Shown piece by piece: positions 18,924-39,132 of a DNA stretch of 40,768 nucleotides. The notes under the pieces are model-generated. The model saw only the letters and a program-made list of their open reading frames with translations, was not told the origin of the DNA and ran no database searches. This stretch comes from Vulcanimicrobiota bacterium (GTDB lineage Bacteria; Vulcanimicrobiota; JAJTBE01), in the NCBI GenBank assembly GCA_021107945.1, contig JAIORV010000183.1, positions 1 to 40,768 on the forward strand, written 5' to 3'. Positions within the stretch are counted from its first letter, which is position 1, and the number at the start of each line of letters is the position of its first letter. The position numbers and the translations under genes are program-made.

Positions 18924-19321
18924 TATTAATTTGGGTGCATTTACTTTTTGTCAAAGGTTCAAGCGTAATTATTCAGTCTCCCAAGGCTTCTTGTCCTTCT
19001 GAGCGAATCAAGAAAGACTTGAGTATGTCATTCTGAGCGGATCACGAATGAATTACTTGACTCCGATGATTTTCTCAAAGACGCGATTATCTTGTGTCCA
19101 GGGATTTACACAGCGAAGAATCTCTTGAACCTATGCTTGAAGGAGATCGTTGCCACAGAAGAGATCCTTCGCTGATTAATACATCGGAGGTAAGTAAAAT
19201 CCGTTCTTACCAAAGCTTATCCAATAAATTAAGAGATCGTATTCCGCTCAGGATGACATGGCGGTGGGATCTGAATAGCAATAAATATTTTTGACAGGAA
19301 ACATGTGCACCCTATTAATTT
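18924..19321. mobile_element. Non-autonomous insertion element with 9-bp target duplication
   Basis: The element proper is 18933-19312 (380 bp). It begins GGGTGCATTTACTTTTTGTC and ends TTGACAGGAAACATGTGCACCC-like; the two ends are inverted copies matching at 17 of the first 23 positions, with the outer seven (GGGTGCA/TGCACCC) perfect. On both sides stands TATTAATTT (18924-18932 and 19313-19321), a 9-bp direct repeat as left by a cut-and-paste transposase. Inside are no genes; most of the interior (18985-19258) is the dispersed repeat also present at 39-275 and 1934-2017. It must have been moved by a transposase encoded elsewhere. Confidence 0.8.
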
Positions 19322-19704: not shown

Positions 19705-21027
19705 ATGAACAAAAAAAAGCAAAAGAACAAAAAGGTCAAATTCCTATCTCTTTCCGTTTGTGGTTTCAAATCCATTGCAGATAAACAAACAATAGAAATT
19801 CGTCCTTTGACAATACTTGCCGGCGCAAATAGCTCCGGTAAGTCAAGTATAATGCAGCCACTTCTTTTAATGAAACAAACGCTTGAAGCGCAATACGATC
19901 CGGGGGTATTTCTCCTTGATGGCCCAAATGTCCATTTTTCATTAGGAGATCAATTATTATGGAAAGGTCCGGATGAACACAGAACGACTGAGTTTACTGT
20001 TGAGCTTGAGTTCGATAAGATTTTAGTTAGAATGAAGTATGTCAAAGCAGAAAAAGAAATTGATATCGCTGAAATGGCATACAAGTTTGGAGATAACGAA
20101 GAGCAGTTATTCACCAAGGGAATGACACATGATGAGATAAAGGAAAAAATACCGGATCTTTTTGATAGCATTTACGAGGAATTTGGCAAACTGGAAGAAT
20201 TAAATTTTGAGGTTGTTAGAAAACGATGTTTCCGCGAAATTCATATTCATTCAAGTGGAGAATTTAGCTTTGCTATTTATACGTTTTCTCCTGGCAGTTT
20301 CCTTGTAGATCTCTTACTTAATCTTATTCATCTTCCCGGCCTTCGCGGAAATCCGGAACGAACATGCAAAAAGATTGCACTTGGCAAATATTTTCCGGGG
20401 ACTTTTCAAAACTACGTGGCAAGTGTTATAGATCACTGGAAGGAAGACAGCCCAGATAAGCTAGAGTTGCTGGGAAAGAATCTTCAAAAGCTTGGCCTGA
20501 CATGGAAAATTGATTCCAGAGACATTGATGATACACAGATTGGACTCTATGTAGGTCGCCTTCCTGTTGGAAGCATGAAAAAAGGATCCGGCGACATGGT
20601 CAGTATTGCGGATGTGGGGCTTGGTGTGTCCCAGACTCTGCCTGTAGTGTTAGCTTTAATGGTGGCAGAACCGGGGCAGATTGTCTATATCGAACAGCCT
20701 GAACTTCATTTGCATCCCGGAGCCCAGGTTGCCCTTGCACAGATAATTTCTGAAGCCTCCAAAAGAGGTGTTCGTGTAGTAATTGAAACGCACAGCCAGT
20801 ATTTGCTCCTTGGTGTTCAAACGCTGGTGGCAGAAGGTAAGCTTAATCACAATTTAGTCAAGCTCCACTGGTTTACTCGCCGGAAGAATGGTTCAACCAA
20901 GGTGAGCAGTGTTGATCTTGATAAAAGCGGAGCTTATGGTGATTGGCCCGAAGATTTCAGCAATGTTGAATTAAAACTGGAAGAACGATATATAAATGCA
21001 TTCGAAAAATCGCTGGAAATGGAGTAA
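19705..21027 (+). CDS. SMC/OLD-like AAA ATPase with DUF3696-type C-terminus
   Basis: 440 residues. The N-terminus LSLSVCGFKSIADKQTIEIR leads into Walker A GANSSGKSS (40-48) and Q51. A 230-residue insertion (65-295) replaces the long coiled coil of SMC proteins. Then come a signature-like DVGLGVSQTLPVVLAL (303-318), Walker B QIVYIEQPELHLHP (325-338, E330/E333) and the switch histidine H363 (ETHS). The end, GAYGDWPEDFSN (409-420), is the DUF3696 signature. Such ATPases act as dimeric DNA- or damage-sensing machines in several anti-phage systems (OLD/Gabija, Septu, PARIS) with a nuclease partner. Here the partner gene starts 8 bp downstream. Strong ribosome site (CAGGAGAAAC). Confidence 0.85.
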   Translation: MNKKKQKNKKVKFLSLSVCGFKSIADKQTIEIRPLTILAGANSSGKSSIMQPLLLMKQTLEAQYDPGVFLLDGPNVHFSLGDQLLWKGPDEHRTTEFTVELEFDKILVRMKYVKAEKEIDIAEMAYKFGDNEEQLFTKGMTHDEIKEKIPDLFDSIYEEFGKLEELNFEVVRKRCFREIHIHSSGEFSFAIYTFSPGSFLVDLLLNLIHLPGLRGNPERTCKKIALGKYFPGTFQNYVASVIDHWKEDSPDKLELLGKNLQKLGLTWKIDSRDIDDTQIGLYVGRLPVGSMKKGSGDMVSIADVGLGVSQTLPVVLALMVAEPGQIVYIEQPELHLHPGAQVALAQIISEASKRGVRVVIETHSQYLLLGVQTLVAEGKLNHNLVKLHWFTRRKNGSTKVSSVDLDKSGAYGDWPEDFSNVELKLEERYINAFEKSLEME

Positions 21028-21035
21028 CTACATAA

Positions 21036-21569
21036 ATGTCAAAGAAAAAATCCAGGCGAATTGTAATTGATGCCTGTATTGCCCGCTCTGCCGGGGGAGA
21101 TAGAGCCAAAAAAGGACGTTCCATTCTATGCACGAGTTTTCTCTTAAAAGTATTAAAAATTTGTTACATAGCGATATTTACAGAAGAACTTTTTGAAGAA
21201 TGGAGAAAACATAGAACAGATTTTGCCAGGAAATGGCAGAAAACAATGTTCTCAAAGAATAAGGCTAAAATTCTTGATAATTCAGAAGATCAACTTTTGC
21301 GCAATAGAATTAGATTAGAATGCGAAAGAAGAAAGCTGCCATTGGAAGAAGTGCTTAAGGATACTCACCTTGTTGAAGCGGCGATTAAAACGGACAAAAC
21401 AATCGCTTCTTTAGATAATAAGGCAAGAAATAATTTTAGTAAAATGTCTCCAGGAATTGGGGAATTGAGATCAATATACTGGATAAATCCTGCCAATCCG
21501 GACGAGAATGTTATTCAATGGCTCGAATCGGGCTCAATCCCGGATGCAAATAGACTGTTGTGTAATTAA
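21036..21569 (+). CDS. PIN-like putative nuclease partner of the ATPase
   Basis: 177 residues. The order of acidic residues fits a PIN fold: D12 in RRIVIDACIARSAGG, E50/E51 in IAIFTEELFEEW, D109 in EEVLKDTHLVEAAI and D127 in IASLDNKAR. PIN domains cut RNA or DNA using these acids and Mg2+ or Mn2+. Residues 52-100 are very basic (KHRTDFARKWQKTMFSKNKA), suitable for nucleic acid binding. The gene lies 8 bp after the ATPase gene, clearly one operon. The assignment rests on motif order only; a small toxin-like VapC relationship is unlikely because of the length and the ATPase partner. Nothing like an antitoxin gene accompanies it. Confidence 0.65.
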   Translation: MSKKKSRRIVIDACIARSAGGDRAKKGRSILCTSFLLKVLKICYIAIFTEELFEEWRKHRTDFARKWQKTMFSKNKAKILDNSEDQLLRNRIRLECERRKLPLEEVLKDTHLVEAAIKTDKTIASLDNKARNNFSKMSPGIGELRSIYWINPANPDENVIQWLESGSIPDANRLLCN

Positions 21570-28397: not shown

Positions 28398-30926
28398 TTA
28401 ATTTGTAATCGAGTGAACTATAGTATCCAATGCGCCGCATATGAATATATCGGTTGCGCTGGAACCGGTCACTCCAGCCAGATTCTTGACTGTAATAGTC
28501 GCAAAAGGTGTAGCGCCGGGGCTGATTCTTTGTAAGGTAGTGCCGTTATAGAAGAATATGGATCCAGTATTTCCGACCATAAACACATTGGTGGCTGATG
28601 ATCCCCATACACTCTCAAACCCCGTACCTGCGACTGCCTGTACGGTTCTGGTCCAGCTAGTGCCGCCGTTCTGGGATATATAAAGTACACCATGAGTTGC
28701 GGCATCATCTCCGACAACAAAGACATTATTTGCATCCGACGCCCAGACGTCTTTCAGATCATCGGTAGCGGTGACTCCTGTGCTGGTATCAGCCCATGAT
28801 CCTGCTGCCCATGCTCCACCTGCGTATTTCCAGAGGTCGGCATTTTCTCCGACTGCGTAGACAGAGTTGCTTGCTCCTGCGCAATAGACACTATTTAGTT
28901 GGTTAGCGCCTCCGCCTGTAGGAACAATTTGACCTGCCCATGCCGCGCCATTGTTGCGGTTGATATTTCCTGCCGCGCCGACTGCATAGATATTAGTCGC
29001 GTTATATCCGTGGACACCGAACCAATCGATTGCTCCAATACCGCCTCCGCCGGAGCCGTTGTCAGCCCAGTTCACTCCAGCATATCGTCTTGAGCTTCCA
29101 CCGTCTCCAACAGCATAGACATCTGACGATGTTCTTGCCCATACGGAGTTCAAAGCGGCTGCTCCGGGTACTCCGCCTGCGGCGTATTGAACCCATGTCG
29201 TGCCACCGTTTGTAGTGGAGAGGATAAGGGGTCTTCCTCCTACAACCTCACCAACTGCGAAAACGTTATTGGCATCAACCGCTGATATGTCATTAAGCTG
29301 AGTCCAAACATGGTTTGGCTGGGCTACATTTTGAACCCAGGTTATGCCGTCAGAGGAAGTAATAACTATTCCATTGGCATTTGTTTCATCGCCTGCCAAT
29401 CCACCGGAACATAATAATACTGGGCCCGTTGCATAGCAGAAAGCTGAATATAGAGGTTGTTGTCCGGTGTTGGCGCTGGTACGATCCGCCCAGTCTGCGC
29501 CTGTTCCAAGAGGTGAATGGACAACTGTGGCGTTTCCACCGACCAGGTCTCCGCAGGCTATAGCATGTGTTCCGGCGGGTAAGATCCCAACTGATCTTAA
29601 TGTGGTGTTTGGAATGACGGCATCGTTTGTCTGATTCGCCCAATCTGCTCCGGTTCCAAGTGCGGAATATATAACTGTTGCTCTAAATACTCCAGCGGCA
29701 CCTTCTGAAGGAGCGCCTACGGCAAATACCTTCGTTCCGCCGTCTGCCCCACAGACATCCGTAAGACTTACATTGAGGGCTGCCGGACCCGCAGCATAGT
29801 CGTTGGGTGGGACTTGTCCTGCCCAGTCGGAACCGTCTCCAACGGCGGAGTATAGAATTGTTGACTGTGCTCCCACTGCGTCTCCAACTGCAAATACCTT
29901 TGCTCCGTTGGCGGGAACCCATACGCCGTTCAGGTGGGCATTTGGAGCGGCGGCGGATTGATTCGCCCAGTCACTGCCGTCTCCAAGAGCGGAGTATAGA
30001 ATTGTTCCGTTCACTCCGCCGGAATTTCCGACAATAAAAACATTCGTGGCGGCGCCGTCATGCGCGCCATAGACATCATTCAAATTGACATTTGGAATTC
30101 CCGTAACCTGTCTTGCCCAGTTTTGGCCAAAGTCGCTTGAGAAAAATATTATTCCGGAACCTCCGTTAGCTTCTCCGACAATAAACCAGTTCTTTCCTGT
30201 AGAAGATCCCCATACGGAGTTCAATGTCGCATTAAGTCCTGAATTGATTCTTTGAGTTGTTGCACCGGACTTCCGGTATATCATTCCATGTTCTCCTACC
30301 GAAATGGTGATGTTTCCAGCGATATAGGATCCTTTTGCCCTAAAATCTCCCTGGGGTTTCGGATTCTGCCATTCCCATCCGCTGATACCCGGTACAGGCA
30401 CCGGTCCCGGTGAAGATGTGGGAGTCGGGGTTGGAGTTGTCGTCCCCGTGGGCGATGGTGTTGGTGAAACTGTTGTTGTAGGTGATGGTGAAACTGTTGT
30501 TGTAGGTGATGGTGTAGGTGTGGTTGTGGGAGTCGGGCTTGTGCCGGGGGTTATTACTGTTTCATTCGATGGAACCTCGGTTGTTAAGCCCGAATTCACT
30601 GTAACAGCGATATTCGTTGTTTGATAACCCGACTTTAAAATCGAAAGAGTCCATGTACCAATAGGTACATTTGCAATTGAGAACTGCCCAAGCTGATCGG
30701 AAGTGGATGAATAAACTTCCTTTCCCGTAGTGGAAGTATCAATTGAGCATGTAGCGCTCTGAACAGGTAATCCATTCTGATCGGTAACCGTTCCTGAAAC
30801 TGTTCCCGTTTCTCCTCCTCCTCCATCGCCACCGGAGCTACTGCCACATCCCATTGGAATGAACATGGCGACAATAAATATGGCAATGACAAGCCAGAAG
30901 AGTAAAAGTGTTGTCCTTTTCTTCAT
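28398..30926 (-). CDS. Surface lipoprotein, tandem paralog 1 (beta-propeller)
   Basis: 842 residues. Lipoprotein-like signal (1-27, C27 in IPMGC, unusual because proline replaces leucine at -3), Gly/Ser spacer, carboxypeptidase-regulatory-like beta domain (42-112, GTVSGTVTDQNGLPV), a Thr/Pro/Ser linker (127-180), then about 13-14 repeats of the form LNSVWG...NVF-VG...G-I...W, typical of YCF48/Asp-box-like propellers; that number suits two seven-bladed propellers. Members of such families bind carbohydrate, protein or surfaces, but the ligand here is unknown. GGAGGGG ribosome site. The linker has one extra 24-bp repeat relative to the other copies. Last gene (3'-most) of the four-copy array. 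Confidence 0.85.
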   Translation of the reverse strand: MKKRTTLLLFWLVIAIFIVAMFIPMGCGSSSGGDGGGGETGTVSGTVTDQNGLPVQSATCSIDTSTTGKEVYSSTSDQLGQFSIANVPIGTWTLSILKSGYQTTNIAVTVNSGLTTEVPSNETVITPGTSPTPTTTPTPSPTTTVSPSPTTTVSPTPSPTGTTTPTPTPTSSPGPVPVPGISGWEWQNPKPQGDFRAKGSYIAGNITISVGEHGMIYRKSGATTQRINSGLNATLNSVWGSSTGKNWFIVGEANGGSGIIFFSSDFGQNWARQVTGIPNVNLNDVYGAHDGAATNVFIVGNSGGVNGTILYSALGDGSDWANQSAAAPNAHLNGVWVPANGAKVFAVGDAVGAQSTILYSAVGDGSDWAGQVPPNDYAAGPAALNVSLTDVCGADGGTKVFAVGAPSEGAAGVFRATVIYSALGTGADWANQTNDAVIPNTTLRSVGILPAGTHAIACGDLVGGNATVVHSPLGTGADWADRTSANTGQQPLYSAFCYATGPVLLCSGGLAGDETNANGIVITSSDGITWVQNVAQPNHVWTQLNDISAVDANNVFAVGEVVGGRPLILSTTNGGTTWVQYAAGGVPGAAALNSVWARTSSDVYAVGDGGSSRRYAGVNWADNGSGGGGIGAIDWFGVHGYNATNIYAVGAAGNINRNNGAAWAGQIVPTGGGANQLNSVYCAGASNSVYAVGENADLWKYAGGAWAAGSWADTSTGVTATDDLKDVWASDANNVFVVGDDAATHGVLYISQNGGTSWTRTVQAVAGTGFESVWGSSATNVFMVGNTGSIFFYNGTTLQRISPGATPFATITVKNLAGVTGSSATDIFICGALDTIVHSITN
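30463..30510. repeat. 24-bp tandem duplication in linker of copy 1
   Basis: Two adjacent identical 24-bp units (30463-30486, 30487-30510) in the Thr/Pro linker code; the other three copies have one unit. The length is a multiple of three, so the frame is kept. Confidence 0.8.
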
Positions 30927-31056
30927 TAACTCCCCTCCTTATAAACTATAACTTATAAACTACACTATATATTGTACTATTCTGAATACAATAATAATTT
31001 CCTATTAGAAAAAATTGGAAATTTGAATGGTTACCGTTCAGCCCCTGTGTTTTTTT

Positions 31057-31185
31057 TACCACAGAAAACACAGAGATAAATCGAAAAATTCTCTGCGCCT
31101 GCGCCGAACTTGTTTCAGGGACGTCCCTACAGATTCGGGCTGCTTTATCCGTTTTTCGAATATCTCTGTGGTCTTTGTGGTGAAT
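31057..31185. repeat. MITE-like element between lipoprotein copies 1 and 2
   Basis: Left end ACCACAGAAAACACAGAG, right end CTCTGTGGTCTTTGTGGTG, inverted arms of the dispersed family; the centre contains a CTTGTTTCAGGGACGTCCC word. The gene-free stretch 30927-31258 otherwise holds the upstream region of copy 1 and the terminator of copy 2. Confidence 0.6.
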
Positions 31186-31200
31186 AGTAGCCAAGATTAT

Positions 31201-31233
31201 ATAAAAAGAGAGGAGCTTACTTGCTCCTCTCTT
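31201..31233 (-). terminator. Terminator of lipoprotein copy 2
   Basis: Perfect 11-bp stem AAGAGAGGAGC (31206-31216) / GCTCCTCTCTT (31223-31233), 6-nt loop, followed on the minus strand by a T-run (TTTTTAT). The same stem occurs after copies 3 and 4. Confidence 0.85.
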
Positions 31234-31258
31234 AGAGATAAATCATTTTATATCATGA

Positions 31259-33757
31259 TCACCGCGTAATCGAATGTACTATAGTATCCAACGCGCCGCA
31301 TATGAATATATCGGTTGCGCTTGTGCCGGTCACTCCAGATAGATCCTTGGTTGTAATAGTCGCAAAAGGTGTAGCGCCGGGGCTTATCTTTTGTAAGGTA
31401 GTGCCGTTATAGAAGAATATGGCTCCATTATTCCCGACCATAAATACATTGGTGGCTGATGAACCCCATACACTCTCAAACTGCGTATTTGCGTCCGCCA
31501 CTACGGTTCTGGCCCAGCTAGTACCGCCGTTCTGGCTTATATAAAGTACACCATGAGTTGCGGCATCATCTCCGACAACAAATACATTGTTTGCATCCCA
31601 CGCCCAGACTTCTTTCAGAGCGTCGGTTGCAATAACTCCTGTGCTGGTATCAACCCATGATCCTGCCGCCCATGCTCCGCCTGTGTATTTCCAGAGGTCG
31701 GCACCTTCTCCGACTGCATATACACAGTTGCTTGCACCTGCGCAATAGACATGATTGAGTTGATTTGCGCCTCCACCTGTAGGAACAATCTGACCTTCCC
31801 ACGCGGCGCCGTTGTTGCGATTGATATTACCTGCCGCACCAACTGCGTATATAGAAGTTGCATTATATCCGTGGACACCAAACCAGTTGATTGCTCCAAT
31901 ACCGCCTCCGCCGGAGCCGTTGTCAGCCCAGTTCACTCCAGCATAGCGTCTCGAGCTTCCACCATCTCCAACAGCATAGACATCGGTTGCGGTTCTTGCC
32001 CATACGTCGTGCAACGTGGTGCCTCCGGGTGCTCCACCTGCGGCATATTGAACCCATGTCGTGCCACCATTTGCAGTGGAGAGGATAATGGGTCTTCCTC
32101 CCACAACTGCACCAACTACGAAAACATTATTTGCATCAGCCGCTGATATGTCATTAACCTGTGTCCATAGGTGGTTAGGTTGGGCGATATTTTGCACCCA
32201 GTTTATACCATCGCCGGAAGATAGTTGTATGCCATTCTGATTCCCTTCGGCTCCTCCGTTTCCACCAACGATAATTAAGACAGGGCCGGTTGCATAGCAG
32301 AATGCCCCATATAGGGTTTGCTGTCCGGTATTGGCGCTGGTACGATTCGCCCAGTCTGCACCTGTTCCAAGAGGTGAATGGATAACCGCAGCGTTTCCAC
32401 CAACCAGATCACCACAGGCAATAGCATTTGTTCCGGCGGGTAAGATCCCTACCGAATATAATATGGCGTTTGGAATGACAGCTGAGTTTGTCTGATTCGC
32501 CCAATCCGCTCCGGTTCCAAGGGCGGAATATATAACTGTGCCTCTATCTACTCCAGCGGCACCTTCTGAAGGAGCGCCTACGGCAAATACCTTCGTTCCG
32601 TCATCTGCTCCACAAACATCCCAAAGACTTATATTGAGGGCTGCAGGACCTGCAGCATAGTCGTTGGGTGGGACTTGTGCTGCCCAGTCTGCTCCGGTTC
32701 CAAGGGCGGAGTATAAAATTGTTGACTGTGCTCCTACTGCGTCTCCAACTGCAAATACCTTTGTTCCATTGGCGGGAACCCATACGCCGTTCAAGTTGGC
32801 ATTGGGAGCTGAAGCTGATTGATCCGCCCAGTCACTGCCGTCTCCAAGAGCGGAGTAAAGGATTGTTCCATTGGCTCCAACGATATTTCCAACAATGAAA
32901 ACATTCGTGGCGGCGCCGTCATGTGCGCCATAGACATCGTTCAAATTTGCATTGGGGATACCCACAGTCTGCCTTGTCCAGGTCAGACCGAAGTCGGTTG
33001 AGAAAAGGACTACTCCGGTTCCTCCGACTGCATCTCCGACGATGAACCAGTTTTGCCCTGTAGAAGATCCCCATACGGCGTTAAATGACACATCAATGCC
33101 TGAATTGATTTTTTCCCTCGTGCCTTCGACACCCCGGTATATCATTCCATGTTCTCCCACAAGAATCTCTATACCGCCGGCGACATAGAATCCCTTACCC
33201 CTGTAATCTCCCTGGGGCTTCGGATTCTGCCATTCCCATCCGCTGATACCGGGTACCGGTCCCGGAGGTGTGGATGTGGGAGATGGGGTGGGGGTTGTCG
33301 TCCCAGTGGGTTGTGGCGTGGGTGTAACAGTTGTTGTAGGTGATGGTGTGGGTGTGGTTGTGGGAGTCGGGCTTGTTCCCGGAGTTATCACTGTCTCATC
33401 CGATGGAAGCTCGGTTGTTGAACCCGAGTTCACTGTAACAGCGATATTCGTTGTCTGATATCCCGACTTTGTAATTGAAAGAGTCCATGTACCAATAGGT
33501 ACATTTGCAATTGTGAACATACCAAGTTGATCGGAAGTGGATGAATAAACTTCCTTCCCTGTAGTGGAAGTATCAATTGAGCATGTGGCGTCCTGAACCG
33601 GTAGTCCGTTCTGATCGGTAACCGTTCCGGAAACTGTTCCCGTTTCTCCTCCTCCGTCACCACCGGAGCTGCCGCCGCATCCCATTGGAATGAACATGGC
33701 GACAATAAATATGGCAATGACAAGCCAGAAGAGTAAAAGTGGAATCCTTTTTTTCAT
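31259..33757 (-). CDS. Surface lipoprotein, tandem paralog 2 (beta-propeller)
   Basis: 832 residues with the same order of parts as the other three copies: signal with C27, regulatory-like beta domain (about 41-111), Thr/Pro linker, and the propeller repeats (for example LNDVYGAHDGAATNVFIVGN, VWVPANGTKVFAVGDAVGAQ). Its first 221 bp region (33522-33742) is identical to that of copy 3, while its propeller is closest to copy 1. Copy 2 differs most at the seventh repeat (LYGAFCYATGPVLIIVGG, then AEGNQNGIQLSSGDG), the same place where the other copies diverge. GGGAGG ribosome site and its own terminator, so it can be transcribed alone. Confidence 0.85.
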   Translation of the reverse strand: MKKRIPLLLFWLVIAIFIVAMFIPMGCGGSSGGDGGGETGTVSGTVTDQNGLPVQDATCSIDTSTTGKEVYSSTSDQLGMFTIANVPIGTWTLSITKSGYQTTNIAVTVNSGSTTELPSDETVITPGTSPTPTTTPTPSPTTTVTPTPQPTGTTTPTPSPTSTPPGPVPGISGWEWQNPKPQGDYRGKGFYVAGGIEILVGEHGMIYRGVEGTREKINSGIDVSFNAVWGSSTGQNWFIVGDAVGGTGVVLFSTDFGLTWTRQTVGIPNANLNDVYGAHDGAATNVFIVGNIVGANGTILYSALGDGSDWADQSASAPNANLNGVWVPANGTKVFAVGDAVGAQSTILYSALGTGADWAAQVPPNDYAAGPAALNISLWDVCGADDGTKVFAVGAPSEGAAGVDRGTVIYSALGTGADWANQTNSAVIPNAILYSVGILPAGTNAIACGDLVGGNAAVIHSPLGTGADWANRTSANTGQQTLYGAFCYATGPVLIIVGGNGGAEGNQNGIQLSSGDGINWVQNIAQPNHLWTQVNDISAADANNVFVVGAVVGGRPIILSTANGGTTWVQYAAGGAPGGTTLHDVWARTATDVYAVGDGGSSRRYAGVNWADNGSGGGGIGAINWFGVHGYNATSIYAVGAAGNINRNNGAAWEGQIVPTGGGANQLNHVYCAGASNCVYAVGEGADLWKYTGGAWAAGSWVDTSTGVIATDALKEVWAWDANNVFVVGDDAATHGVLYISQNGGTSWARTVVADANTQFESVWGSSATNVFMVGNNGAIFFYNGTTLQKISPGATPFATITTKDLSGVTGTSATDIFICGALDTIVHSITR

Positions 33758-33889
33758 TATTTATCCTCCCTTTATTGCATAATATATTCTCCCTTTATAA
33801 TGTAATTCTTAATGTATCAACAATTTCCTATCTGAGCAAATTATAAATTTGAATGAAATAAGTTGTTATTAGCTTCAGAAAGTTCGGAG

Positions 33890-33922
33890 ATAAAAAGAGA
33901 GGAGCTAATTTGCTCCTCTCTT
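33890..33922 (-). terminator. Terminator of lipoprotein copy 3
   Basis: The same 11-bp stem as after copy 2 (33895-33905 and 33912-33922), loop TAATTT, followed on the minus strand by TTTTTAT. The flanking 158 bp (33791-33948) match 36473-36630 with only a handful of differences. Confidence 0.85.
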
Positions 33923-33948
33923 GAAGATAGACCGTTTTTATACAATGA

Positions 33949-36462
33949 TCACTGTGTAATCGAATGTACTATAGTATCAAACGCTCCCGTCAGGAATAGA
34001 TCGGTCGCGCTGGATCCGGTTATTCCAAACAGATCCTTGGTTGTAATAGGTGCGGCTATTGAGCCGTGGCTGATTTGTGTTAGATTGAAACCGTCATAGT
34101 AGAATATGGAGCCATTATCGCCGACTACGAACACATTAAAGCTAGATGTGCCCCATATACTCTTAAATTCCGTGTTTGCGCCCGCCTGTACGGTTCTGGC
34201 CCAGACTGCGCCACCGCCCTCGGACACATAAAACACACCATGAGTTGCGGCGTCATCTCCAACAACAAATACATTACTTGAATCCGATGCCCAGACGTCT
34301 TTCAGATCATCAGTACCTGTAATTCCTGCGCTGATATCAGCCCATGATCCTACGACCCATGCTCCACCTGTGTATCTCCAGAGGTCGGCGTCTTCCCCGA
34401 CAGCATAGACAGAGTCTGCAGCGCCTCCACAATAGACACCGTTAAGCTGTTTTGCTCCTCCGCCTACGGCAACCTGGCCTTCCCATGCGCCGTTGTAGCG
34501 GTTGATATTACCTGCCGCGCCGACAGCGTATATTGAAGTTGCATTATATCCGTGGACACCAAACCAGTCGATTGCTCCAATGTTACCTCCGCCTGCGCCG
34601 GAGCCGTTGTCTGCCCAGTTCACTCCTTCATAGCGTCTCGAGCTTCCACCGTCTCCAACAGCATAGACATCGGTCGATGTTCTTGCCCATACGGAGTTCA
34701 ATGCGGCTGCTCCGGGTACTCCGCCTGCGGCGTATTGAGTCCAGAGTGTGCCACCATTTGCAGTTGAGAGGATTAATGGTCTTCCTCCCACAACCTCACC
34801 GACTGCAAAGACATTATTTGCATCAGCCGCTGATATATCATTGGCTTGTGTCCATCGATGGTTAGGCTGGGCGATATTTTGCACCCAGGTTATACCGTCA
34901 TTAGCTTCAGAACTGAGGATAATGCCATTTTCCATGGTATAGTTTCCTCCGTCTCCACCAAAACACAGTAATTTGTTACCACAATGTGTGGCCATTAGAT
35001 TCTGCCCGGATAGGGCTCCGACTGAACGATCAGCCCAGTTGGCGCCATCACCCGCTGCACAATGAATCAGGGTGCCAATTCCACCCAGCGAGTTACCGCC
35101 TGCAATAGCGTGGGTTCCTGCGGGAAGCATGGAAACAGAATTGTAAGTGGTATTAATTAAGCCGACACCAGCTCCACCAATGTTTTTAGATTGGTTAGTC
35201 CAAAGACCGCCTTCATTGATAGTATAGATTATTGTTCCTCCCTGTCCAGCATCTACAATAGAAGGTGCTCCAACTATAAACACTTTTGATCCATCAAGAT
35301 TTCCACCGACATCCATGAAATTTGCATTGATGAGTGCCGGAATGCCCGGAACCGCCAAGTCAAGGGGTGGATTTTGTCTTGTCCAGTTTGTGCCCTGGTT
35401 GTTGGAGTATAGAATAACTCCTTTGGCTGTCTCTACATTTCCAACAGCAAACACAACAGAAGCATCAGAATCAACCCATACGCCGTTCAGGATCGTGACA
35501 ACGTTATTGGGCTTCGTTGATTGATCTACCCAGTCTGCCCCGGTTCCGAGAGCTGAAAACAGGATAGTCCCGTTTCCTCCGTCAGGTGCACCAACTACGA
35601 ACACATTTGTTCCATCGTTGGCTCCATAGACATCCATAAGATTTCCATTGGGGATACCCGCAACCTGCCTTGCCCAGGTCTGACCTGAGTCGCTGGAGTA
35701 TAGAATTACTCCACTGCCGGCATCAGTATCCCCGACAATAAACCATTTTGTTCCATCATTAGAACCCCATACGGAATTCAGGTTTACGTTGAGTCCGGAG
35801 TTTATCTTGGCCCATCCGGTCCCGGTTTTCCGTAGGATCATTCCTCCTTGTCCAACTATTATCCCGATATTGTTGGCAAAAAAAGCTCCACGGATCTGAT
35901 AATCTGCCTGGGGTTTCGGATTCTGCAATTCCCATCCGCCGATACCGGGCACGGGTATAGGTCCCGGTCCCGGTGAAGTTGTGGGAGACGGGCTTGGAGT
36001 TACCGTCCCCGTGGGTTGTGGCGTGGGTGTAACAGTTGTTGTAGGTGAGGGTGTAGGTGTAGTTGTGGGAGTCGGGCTTGTTCCCGGAGTTATCACTGTT
36101 TCATTCGATGGAACCTCGGTTGTTGAACCCGAGTTCACTGTAACAGAGATATTCATTGTTTGAAATCCCGACTTTGAAATCGAAAGAGTCCATATACCAA
36201 TAGGTACATTTGCAATTGAGAACATCCCAAGTTGATCGGAAGTGGATGAATAAACTTCCTTCCCTGTAGTGGAAGTATCAATTGAGCATGTGGCGTCCTG
36301 AACCGGTAGTCCGTTCTGATCGGTAACCGTTCCGGAAACTGTTCCCGTTTCTCCTCCTCCGTCACCACCGGAGCTGCCGCCGCATCCCATTGGAATGAAC
36401 ATGGCGACAATAAATATGGCAATGACAAGCCAGAAGAGTAAAAGTGGTGTCCTTTTTTTCAT
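33949..36462 (-). CDS. Surface lipoprotein, tandem paralog 3 (beta-propeller)
   Basis: 837 residues, same architecture. The N-terminal half of the propeller is the most divergent of the four (for example VDQSTKPNNVVTILNGVWVD, IIYTINEGGLWTNQSKNIGG), whereas its C-terminal half is nearly identical to copy 4. The shift is abrupt, as expected for recombination between paralogs. The final repeats end DLFGITGSSATDLFLTGAFD. Because the head matches copy 2 and the tail matches copy 4, it is a mosaic. Ribosome site GGGAGG; promoter elements TTGATA and TATAAA lie upstream in a segment shared with copy 2. Confidence 0.85.
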   Translation of the reverse strand: MKKRTPLLLFWLVIAIFIVAMFIPMGCGGSSGGDGGGETGTVSGTVTDQNGLPVQDATCSIDTSTTGKEVYSSTSDQLGMFSIANVPIGIWTLSISKSGFQTMNISVTVNSGSTTEVPSNETVITPGTSPTPTTTPTPSPTTTVTPTPQPTGTVTPSPSPTTSPGPGPIPVPGIGGWELQNPKPQADYQIRGAFFANNIGIIVGQGGMILRKTGTGWAKINSGLNVNLNSVWGSNDGTKWFIVGDTDAGSGVILYSSDSGQTWARQVAGIPNGNLMDVYGANDGTNVFVVGAPDGGNGTILFSALGTGADWVDQSTKPNNVVTILNGVWVDSDASVVFAVGNVETAKGVILYSNNQGTNWTRQNPPLDLAVPGIPALINANFMDVGGNLDGSKVFIVGAPSIVDAGQGGTIIYTINEGGLWTNQSKNIGGAGVGLINTTYNSVSMLPAGTHAIAGGNSLGGIGTLIHCAAGDGANWADRSVGALSGQNLMATHCGNKLLCFGGDGGNYTMENGIILSSEANDGITWVQNIAQPNHRWTQANDISAADANNVFAVGEVVGGRPLILSTANGGTLWTQYAAGGVPGAAALNSVWARTSTDVYAVGDGGSSRRYEGVNWADNGSGAGGGNIGAIDWFGVHGYNATSIYAVGAAGNINRYNGAWEGQVAVGGGAKQLNGVYCGGAADSVYAVGEDADLWRYTGGAWVVGSWADISAGITGTDDLKDVWASDSSNVFVVGDDAATHGVFYVSEGGGAVWARTVQAGANTEFKSIWGTSSFNVFVVGDNGSIFYYDGFNLTQISHGSIAAPITTKDLFGITGSSATDLFLTGAFDTIVHSITQ
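34371..34855. repeat. 485-bp tract identical to 37053-37537
   Basis: I compared this tract base by base with 37053-37537 (offset 2682) and found no difference over 485 bp, with mismatches resuming immediately outside. It codes for propeller repeats 7-10 of copies 3 and 4. Confidence 0.85.
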
Positions 36463-36573
36463 TATTTATCCTCCCTTTTATAATGTAATTCTTAATGTAT
36501 CAACGATTTCCTATCTGAGCAAATTATAAATTTGAATGAAATAAGTTGTTATTAGCCGCAGAAAGTTCGGAGA

Positions 36574-36605
36574 TAAAAAGAGAGGAGCTAATTTGCTCCT
36601 CTCTT
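36574..36605 (-). terminator. Terminator of lipoprotein copy 4
   Basis: Stem AAGAGAGGAGC (36578-36588) / GCTCCTCTCTT (36595-36605), loop TAATTT, T-run on the minus strand. Nearly identical in sequence and surroundings to the terminator of copy 3. Confidence 0.85.
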
Positions 36606-36630
36606 GAAGATAGATCGTTTTATACCATGA

Positions 36631-39132
36631 TCACTGTGTAATCGAATGTACTATAGTATCAAACGTTCCCGTCAGGAATAGATCGGTTGCACTGGATCCG
36701 GTTATTCCATGCAGATCCTTGGTTGTAATAGGTGAGGCTATTGAGCCGTGGCTGATTTGTGTTAGATTGAAACCGTCATAGCGGAATATGGAGCCATTGT
36801 CGCCGACTACGAACACATTAAAGCTAGATGTGCCCCATACACTCTTAAATTCCGTGTTTGCGGCCGCCTGTACGGTTCTGGCCCAGACCGCGCCACCGCC
36901 CTGGGATACATAAAACACACCATGAGTTGCGGCGTCATCTCCGACAACAAATACATTACTTGCATCCGATGCCCAGACGTCTTTCAGATCATCGGTACCT
37001 GTAATTCCTGCGCTGATATCAGCCCAAGATCCTACGATCCATGCTCCGCCGGTGTATCTCCAGAGGTCGGCGTCTTCCCCGACAGCATAGACAGAGTCTG
37101 CAGCGCCTCCACAATAGACACCGTTAAGCTGTTTTGCTCCTCCGCCTACGGCAACCTGGCCTTCCCATGCGCCGTTGTAGCGGTTGATATTACCTGCCGC
37201 GCCGACAGCGTATATTGAAGTTGCATTATATCCGTGGACACCAAACCAGTCGATTGCTCCAATGTTACCTCCGCCTGCGCCGGAGCCGTTGTCTGCCCAG
37301 TTCACTCCTTCATAGCGTCTCGAGCTTCCACCGTCTCCAACAGCATAGACATCGGTCGATGTTCTTGCCCATACGGAGTTCAATGCGGCTGCTCCGGGTA
37401 CTCCGCCTGCGGCGTATTGAGTCCAGAGTGTGCCACCATTTGCAGTTGAGAGGATTAATGGTCTTCCTCCCACAACCTCACCGACTGCAAAGACATTATT
37501 TGCATCAGCCGCTGATATATCATTGGCTTGTGTCCATACGTGGTTAGGTTGGGCGATATTTTGTACCCATGTTATACCATCAGCGGAGGAGATAAAAATG
37601 CCATTTGCCTGGGTATGGTCGCCTGCGTTTCCGCCAGAGCAGGTTAAATTGGGGCCAACCATGCAAAATGCGGCAAGCAGGTCCTGTTGCCCGGTGTTGG
37701 CACTGGTGCGATCCGCCCAGTCTGCGCCTGTTCCAAGAGGTGAATGGACAACTACGCCGTTTCCACCGACTATGTCTCCGCAGGCAATTGCATTTGTTCC
37801 GGCGGGTAAGATCCCAACTGATCTCAATGTGGTGTTTGGAATGACGGCATCGTTGGTCTGATTCGCCCAATCTGCTCCGGTTCCAAGTGCGGAATATATA
37901 ACTGTTGCTCTAAATACTCCAGCGGCACCTTCTGAAGGAGCGCCTACGGCAAATACCTTCGTTCCACCATCTGCCCCACAGACATCCATAAGACTTATAT
38001 TGAGGGCTGCCGGACCCGCAGCATAGTCATTTGGTGGGACTTGTGCTGCCCAGTCTGCTCCGGTTCCAAGAGCGGAGTATAGAATAGTTGACTGTGCTCC
38101 CACTGCGTCTCCAACTGCAATTACTTTTGTTCCATCGGCGGGAACCCATACGCCGTTCAGGTGGGCATTGGGTGCCGAGGCTGATTGATCCGCCCAGTCA
38201 CTGCCGTCTCCAAGAGCGGAGTATAGAATTGTTCCGTTCACTCCACCGGAATTTCCGACAACAAAAACATTCGTGGCGGCGCCGTCATGCGCGCCATAGA
38301 CATCATTCAAATTGAAATTGGGGACTCCGACGGTTTGCCTTGTCCAGGTCACGCCTGAGTTGCTTGAGTATAGAATTACTCCAGTGCCGGCATTAGTATC
38401 TCCGACAATAAACCATTTTGTTCCATCATTGGAACCCCATACAGAATTCAGATTCAAATCGAGTCCGGAATTTATCTCGGTCCACCCGGTCGCGTCTTCT
38501 CGCCAGATCATACCGTGTTGGCCAACTATAATGCCGACAGTGGCGGCACCATAAGCTCCCCGAATTTGATAATCTCCCTGTAACAGCGGATTCTGCCATT
38601 CCCATCCGCTGATACCGGGTACGGGTATAGGTCCTGGTCCCTGTGTAGGTGTGGGAGTCGGACTTGGACTTGTCGTCCCCGTGGGCGATGGTGTTGGTGA
38701 AACTGTTGTTGTAGGTGATGGTGTGGGTGTAGTTGTGGGTGTCGGGCTTGTTCCCGGAGTTATCACTGTTTCATTCGATGGAATCTCGGTTGTTGAACCC
38801 GAGTTCACTGTAACAGTGATATTCGTTGTCTGATATCCCGACATTGAAATTGAAAGAGTCCATGTACCCACAGGTACATTTAAAATTGTGAACGCTCCCA
38901 GTTGATCGGTAGTAGATGAATAGACTTCCTTCCCTGTAGTGGAAGTATCAATTGAGCAAGTAGCGTCCTGAACGGGCAGTCCATTCTGGTCGGTAACCGT
39001 TCCGGAAACTGATCCCGTTTCTCCTCCTCCGTCACCACCGGAGCTGCCGCCGCATCCCATTGGAATGAACATGGCGACAATAAACACGGCAATGAATAGC
39101 CAGAAGAACATAATAGCAGGTTTTTTCTTCAA
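36631..39132 (-). CDS. Surface lipoprotein, tandem paralog 4 (beta-propeller)
   Basis: 833 residues, begun at TTG (39130-39132) after AGGAGGGG; the signal MKKKPAIMFFWLFIAVFIVA differs slightly from the other copies but reaches the same IPMGC. Parts: regulatory-like domain (about 41-111), linker, then propeller repeats. The first half of the propeller is closest to copies 1 and 2 (LYSALGDGSDW, SEGAAGVFRATVIYSALGTG) and the second half to copy 3, with the crossover near the seventh repeat. It is the promoter-proximal gene of the array, and the 303-bp upstream spacer is distinct from those of the others. Confidence 0.85.
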   Translation of the reverse strand: MKKKPAIMFFWLFIAVFIVAMFIPMGCGGSSGGDGGGETGSVSGTVTDQNGLPVQDATCSIDTSTTGKEVYSSTTDQLGAFTILNVPVGTWTLSISMSGYQTTNITVTVNSGSTTEIPSNETVITPGTSPTPTTTPTPSPTTTVSPTPSPTGTTSPSPTPTPTQGPGPIPVPGISGWEWQNPLLQGDYQIRGAYGAATVGIIVGQHGMIWREDATGWTEINSGLDLNLNSVWGSNDGTKWFIVGDTNAGTGVILYSSNSGVTWTRQTVGVPNFNLNDVYGAHDGAATNVFVVGNSGGVNGTILYSALGDGSDWADQSASAPNAHLNGVWVPADGTKVIAVGDAVGAQSTILYSALGTGADWAAQVPPNDYAAGPAALNISLMDVCGADGGTKVFAVGAPSEGAAGVFRATVIYSALGTGADWANQTNDAVIPNTTLRSVGILPAGTNAIACGDIVGGNGVVVHSPLGTGADWADRTSANTGQQDLLAAFCMVGPNLTCSGGNAGDHTQANGIFISSADGITWVQNIAQPNHVWTQANDISAADANNVFAVGEVVGGRPLILSTANGGTLWTQYAAGGVPGAAALNSVWARTSTDVYAVGDGGSSRRYEGVNWADNGSGAGGGNIGAIDWFGVHGYNATSIYAVGAAGNINRYNGAWEGQVAVGGGAKQLNGVYCGGAADSVYAVGEDADLWRYTGGAWIVGSWADISAGITGTDDLKDVWASDASNVFVVGDDAATHGVFYVSQGGGAVWARTVQAAANTEFKSVWGTSSFNVFVVGDNGSIFRYDGFNLTQISHGSIASPITTKDLHGITGSSATDLFLTGTFDTIVHSITQ
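37053..37537. repeat. 485-bp tract identical to 34371-34855
   Basis: The partner of the tract in copy 3; same coding phase, no differences found. Confidence 0.85.

Follow-up and report, generated by a model that had tools for sequence, protein, structure and literature searches.

Two adjacent genes on the forward strand of a Vulcanimicrobiota contig (JAIORV010000183.1) encode an ABC ATPase and a small PIN-fold protein. We refer to the whole stretch of DNA that was analysed, 40,768 nucleotides, as the window. The two open reading frames are separated by 8 bp, exactly as the initial annotation had placed them, and a GGAG-type ribosome-binding site precedes each gene. The genes, their key residues and a nearby repeat are as follows.

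18929..19320, no strand assigned: MITE-like dispersed non-coding repeat that does not belong to the system (52 matches across the genome)
19705..21027, forward strand: ATPase gene, ATG start, 440 aa (ORF call, Pfam, AlphaFold, Foldseek)
19822..19848, forward strand: Walker A motif GANSSGKSS, residues 40-48; G40, N42, S43, G45, K46 and S47 invariant in 56 relatives
20692..20703, forward strand: Walker B motif with catalytic glutamate, EQPE, residues 330-333; Q331, P332 and E333 invariant and E330 in at least 90% of 56 relatives
20791..20793, forward strand: switch histidine H363 in ETHS; E361 to S364 invariant in 56 relatives
21036..21569, forward strand: PIN-fold putative nuclease, predicted RNase effector, ATG start, 177 aa (AlphaFold, Foldseek)
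21069..21071, forward strand: PIN acid 1, D12; D in 70 of 74 relatives and N in 4 (some Poribacteria)
21198..21200, forward strand: PIN acid 2, E55; present in 74 of 74 relatives
21360..21362, forward strand: PIN acid 3, D109; D in 73 of 74 relatives and E in 1
21414..21416, forward strand: PIN acid 4, D127; D in 73 of 74 relatives and E in 1

The repeat is about 390 bp long, has imperfect inverted ends, and stops about 384 bp upstream of the ATPase gene. Dozens of copies are present in the genome. The full-length copies are 88 to 100% identical, and one is 100% identical over 382 bp, which suggests recent mobility. The initial annotation had taken this element as a sign of an accessory cassette. 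The repeat is real, but because it is dispersed throughout the genome, its nearness to the pair says little on that point. The GC contents of the pair (41% and 37%) do not differ enough from that of the window (43%) to point to recent transfer. A scan of the nearest neighbours in the window found no recognised defence gene, and promoter and terminator scans did no better than shuffled sequences.

The ATPase matched the Pfam models AAA_15 (1e-24) and AAA_21 (1.4e-24). The initial annotation had described it as a DUF3696-type SMC/OLD-like ATPase. The DUF3696 match (PF12476) was weak, with an E-value of 6.6e-4 and 20.3 bits against a Pfam cut-off of 22, but the OLD/SMC head was borne out by structure. 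The AlphaFold model (pLDDT 90.9, pTM 0.91) retrieved the heads of SMC, Rad50, PtuA and OLD in Foldseek, with E-values down to 1.8e-13. The Walker A motif, the EQPE Walker B motif and H363 lie where they had been read, and most of their residues are invariant among the 56 relatives. By its head fold, Walker A, Walker B and switch histidine, the protein is an OLD/SMC-head ABC ATPase. We predict that it acts as a sensor and regulator.

None of the Pfam, PADLOC, NCBIfam and PHROGs families matched the 177-residue partner. Searching the PDB directly with its sequence yielded nothing beyond short or chance matches, and the fold assignment came from structure alone. The AlphaFold model, built from an alignment of six sequences, has a pLDDT of 88.2 and a pTM of 0.85. 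In a Foldseek search against the PDB, PIN-type RNases filled nearly all of the top 50 places (HARP protein-only RNase P, VapC, Nob1 and ZC3H12C), and the closest folds were those of RNase P (HARP), VapC and Nob1. The top matches (7og5, 1v96, 2lcq and VapC) had a probability of 1.00, modest E-values of 3e-3 to 1e-1, and TM-scores of 0.5 to 0.65. A fold search of BFVD was uninformative. Independently of the fold search, a Pfam scan of 74 partner homologues most often returned PIN_12, Mut7-C, PIN_8 and PIN_3.

In the model, the first of the four conserved acidic residues is at the end of strand 1, the second lies in the helix that follows strand 2, the third belongs to the long central helix, and the fourth comes after strand 4. 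Acidic residues occupy the same topological places in PIN domains. Three of the acids named in the initial annotation, D12, D109 and D127, hold up (conserved in 70 to 73 of 74 relatives); E50/51 is not conserved, and its place is taken by the universally present E55. W149, N151 and P152 form a motif specific to the family. In four Poribacteria (loci L039, L079, L081 and L084) D12 is replaced by asparagine, and the nuclease function there may be lost or changed. The initial annotation had proposed a PIN-like nuclease, and structure prediction gave a PIN fold rather than a non-PIN one. As modelled, the partner has a PIN fold with a conserved D-E-D-D tetrad, and it is predicted to be an active nuclease.

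We scanned 84,980 species genomes once and took the best 80 loci. The query was the ATPase alone, so the test of pairing was unbiased with respect to the partner. The partner was the next gene downstream in 78 of these best 80 loci; at the other two (L017 and L072) the contig stops right there. The co-occurrence search proposed in the initial annotation thus found the two genes together in 78 of 78 testable genome loci. On viral contigs, the partner lies downstream of the ATPase in seven of eight cases, and the exception (L096) shares just 33% identity. At all loci both genes are on one strand. The gap between them is -11 to +8 bp in 91 of 95, and the four outliers include partners that are truncated or broken. 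In the reverse check, all four partner matches in the window's phylum stand behind an ATPase. The two proteins have also coevolved: their pairwise distances correlate with r = 0.835 over 81 pairs, a value reached in none of 2,000 permutations. The ATPase and the PIN partner are obligately paired, far beyond chance. Two loci carry a broken pair: an intact partner behind a split ATPase frame in L086, and a truncated partner behind an intact ATPase in L058 (assembly errors are possible in both). Clustering of all flanks for a third recurrent operon gene returned lineage synteny only.

The pair was found in Cyanobacteria, Poribacteria, Methanothrix, Acidobacteria, Chloroflexi, Planctomycetes, Latescibacteria, Accumulibacter and others, and in a clade from viral contigs. 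Within each of Cyanobacteria, Poribacteria and Methanothrix, branching in the ATPase tree tracks the lineage of the host, which suggests lower mobility than is typical of a defence gene. The four members from the window's phylum are scattered over different parts of the tree. In that phylum, 4 of 107 genomes carry the pair. In one cyanobacterial order it is present in 18 of 147 genomes, two of them with short remnants. Eight cyanobacteria have the pair directly upstream of rpsB-tsf. In four cyanobacteria that lack it, the flanking glycosyltransferase gene and rpsB are 129 to 602 bp apart, leaving an empty site. The pair is accessory, as the initial annotation had supposed, and it is patchy and dispensable.

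On Firmicutes-type prophage contigs, the pair is located between a small integrase-like gene and the genes for an HNH protein and the small and large terminase subunits. The KwaA and KwaB genes of Kiwa directly adjoin the pair in L089 and L090 (E-values of 1e-42 to 5e-125). A PDC-M68-like ATPase/HNH pair is present in L089 too, and in L093 a PD-T7-4-like gene lies beside the ATPase-PIN pair. The initial annotation had suggested looking for defence neighbours in other genomes, and prophages supplied them: Kiwa twice and a PD-T7-4-like gene once. The stretch from the integrase-like gene to the HNH and terminase genes has the makings of a prophage defence hot spot (L089, 3120-5729 and 8236-9723; L090, 4164-5697; L093, 5171-5746), where Kiwa, PDC-M68-like and PD-T7-4-like genes and the ATPase-PIN pair are found. 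At chromosomal loci, type I restriction-modification genes are near a minority of the pairs; the neighbours are mostly ordinary or housekeeping genes, many of them metabolic. A second ATPase gene, OLD/mad3-like, comes right after the pair in genome G030 (L003, 2037-3296). Searches of a plasmid collection with the window and cyanobacterial partners, and of a phage-record collection with the prophage partner, returned no homologue.

We suggest that the two genes probably form an anti-phage module of the abortive-infection type, made of an ATPase sensor and a PIN RNase. The case for a defence role, which we consider likely, is built mainly on the prophage context, on dispensability and architecture, and on the part that related ATPases play against phage. 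In PARIS, AriB is kept inactive in an assembly of the AriA ATPase; when the assembly encounters a phage protein, AriB is released and cuts tRNA (PMC12409363). WonAB, a pair of an OLD-ABC ATPase and a nuclease of prophage origin, also gives phage defence (PMC12137116). By analogy with PARIS, the ABC ATPase may oligomerise and keep the PIN nuclease inactive, and it may sense a phage-derived signal. Sensing would lead to an ATP-dependent rearrangement that licenses the PIN protein. The PIN protein would then cut RNA, most likely tRNA, by means of its four acidic residues and a divalent metal. As a result, translation and phage growth would stop, an abortive outcome like that of PARIS. A literature search found no phage assay of the ATPase-PIN family.

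PARIS is similar in that an ABC ATPase sensor and a small nuclease are combined, and AriA profiles match the window ATPase at 3e-26. However, AriB is a Toprim nuclease and the partner has a PIN fold; the AriB profile matched none of the 74 partners at E ≤ 1. Septu and retron-Septu (PtuA and PtuB) share the ATPase head fold and the two-gene layout, but PtuB is an HNH nuclease, and a search of the 74 partners with PtuB gave one chance-level match (E 0.017).

The same pair could instead be a housekeeping or stress module for RNA or DNA processing. In this scenario, the ATPase would position the PIN nuclease on a cellular substrate, as in tRNA or rRNA maturation or DNA repair, and some lineages would have kept the module vertically. 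Among the nearest solved folds are indeed PIN RNases of tRNA and rRNA maturation (HARP and Nob1), the tree groups by phylum, eight cyanobacteria and Poribacteria show fixed synteny beside rpsB-tsf, and many neighbouring genes are metabolic. However, the pair occurs in only 4 of 107 and 18 of 147 sampled genomes, with empty sites and remnants, and such dispensability would not be expected of a core maturation enzyme. Nor does the carriage of the pair on prophages beside Kiwa fit this role. We consider a housekeeping role unlikely. A toxin-antitoxin-like or plasmid-exclusion module, in which the ATPase would neutralise a VapC-like PIN toxin and the purpose would be selfish maintenance or defence against plasmids, not phage, appears less likely still. 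VapC RNases share the PIN fold and the acidic tetrad with the partner and are among its fold matches, the two genes are tightly coupled in translation, and prophages carry them. In contrast to VapBC, there is no small VapB DNA-binding antitoxin upstream; a 440-aa ATPase takes that position in all loci, and a protein of this size with invariant ATP-binding and hydrolysis motifs would be costly if it were no more than an antitoxin. A strict toxin-antidote pair would also not tolerate the broken pairs at L086 and L058, which make such a role less likely, with the reservation that these may be assembly errors.

It is very improbable that the pair simply belongs to Menshen (NsnABC) or to the PADLOC candidate HEC-03, both of which have a related ATPase. 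In PADLOC, the window ATPase is matched best by NsnB (3e-54), and all 56 ATPases match both the NsnB and the HEC-03B profiles, with NsnB scoring better. However, the window's genome has a separate and complete Menshen on contig C97 (16110-19356; L100, L118 and L119), with NsnA at 1.8e-99, NsnB at 1.2e-111, and NsnC. The NsnB of that system scores 374 bits and the window ATPase 181, and no NsnA (DUF262) or NsnC adjoins the latter. We therefore rejected Menshen. HEC-03 has the same gene order, a DUF3696/AAA_15 ATPase and then a PIN-like protein of 160 to 190 aa with a D-E-D-D pattern. At the seven loci examined, HEC-03A with this pattern lies directly behind the related ATPase, and the window ATPase is 27% identical to a HEC-03B over the full length. 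The small proteins differ, however. The best E-value of the HEC-03A HMM was 0.02, in 1 of the 74 partners, and hhalign aligned it to the partner with a probability of 15%, over the first 56 columns only (the N-terminal half). G030 carries both HEC-03 and a window-type pair, and no HEC-03A was found in the window's genome. The sequence of the partner led us to reject membership in HEC-03 as well. By these profile comparisons, HEC-03A is a different PIN family, and HEC-03 is the nearest architecture. The literature gave no functional description of HEC-03; one survey merely counts it. One Poribacterium has two HEC-03 pairs in tandem (L106 and L107) and also a window-type pair (L076). PDC-M55B was considered as an alternative partner; it has a single occurrence in the phylum, as a protein of about 310 aa, and was set aside.

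The layout is already known as a kind, contrary to the initial annotation, which counted no pair of a DUF3696 ATPase and a PIN-like partner among the known systems. HEC-03 has that layout, and OLD-ABC ATPases paired with PIN endoRNases have been described in BREX neighbourhoods in a paper that credits Krishnan et al. 2020 with earlier cases (PMC12839542). Those dyads resemble the window pair in architecture and in their proposed sensor-plus-RNase logic, but they are associated with BREX, and no BREX was seen around the window's pair. The partner family is absent from all four libraries. It is about an even call whether the pair is an anti-phage system of its own that the catalogues lack, in which an NsnB/OLD-like ATPase would license its own family of PIN RNases in Cyanobacteria, Poribacteria, Methanothrix archaea, Chloroflexi, Acidobacteria, Planctomycetes and Firmicutes-type prophages.

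The catalogues used here miss the effector entirely, and in them the sensor would pass for Menshen or HEC-03. Genomes with the pair are therefore mis-annotated or scored as lacking it. If our proposal holds, the PIN RNase joins the Toprim, HNH and PD-(D/E)XK effectors run by OLD-type ATPases, and one ATPase lineage would have recruited PIN partners at least twice (the window family and HEC-03). Trigger sensing and RNase release would be directly testable in this compact two-gene system, which is found in bacteria, archaea and prophages.

Two further observations concern the window's genome. Contig C57 (31139-32604; L115 and L116) encodes another DUF3696-type ATPase in two frames of 346 and 171 aa, which is probably a pseudogene or a sequencing error. 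In the window itself, positions 28398-39132 on the reverse strand hold four consecutive ORFs of 832 to 842 aa, possibly a tandem family.
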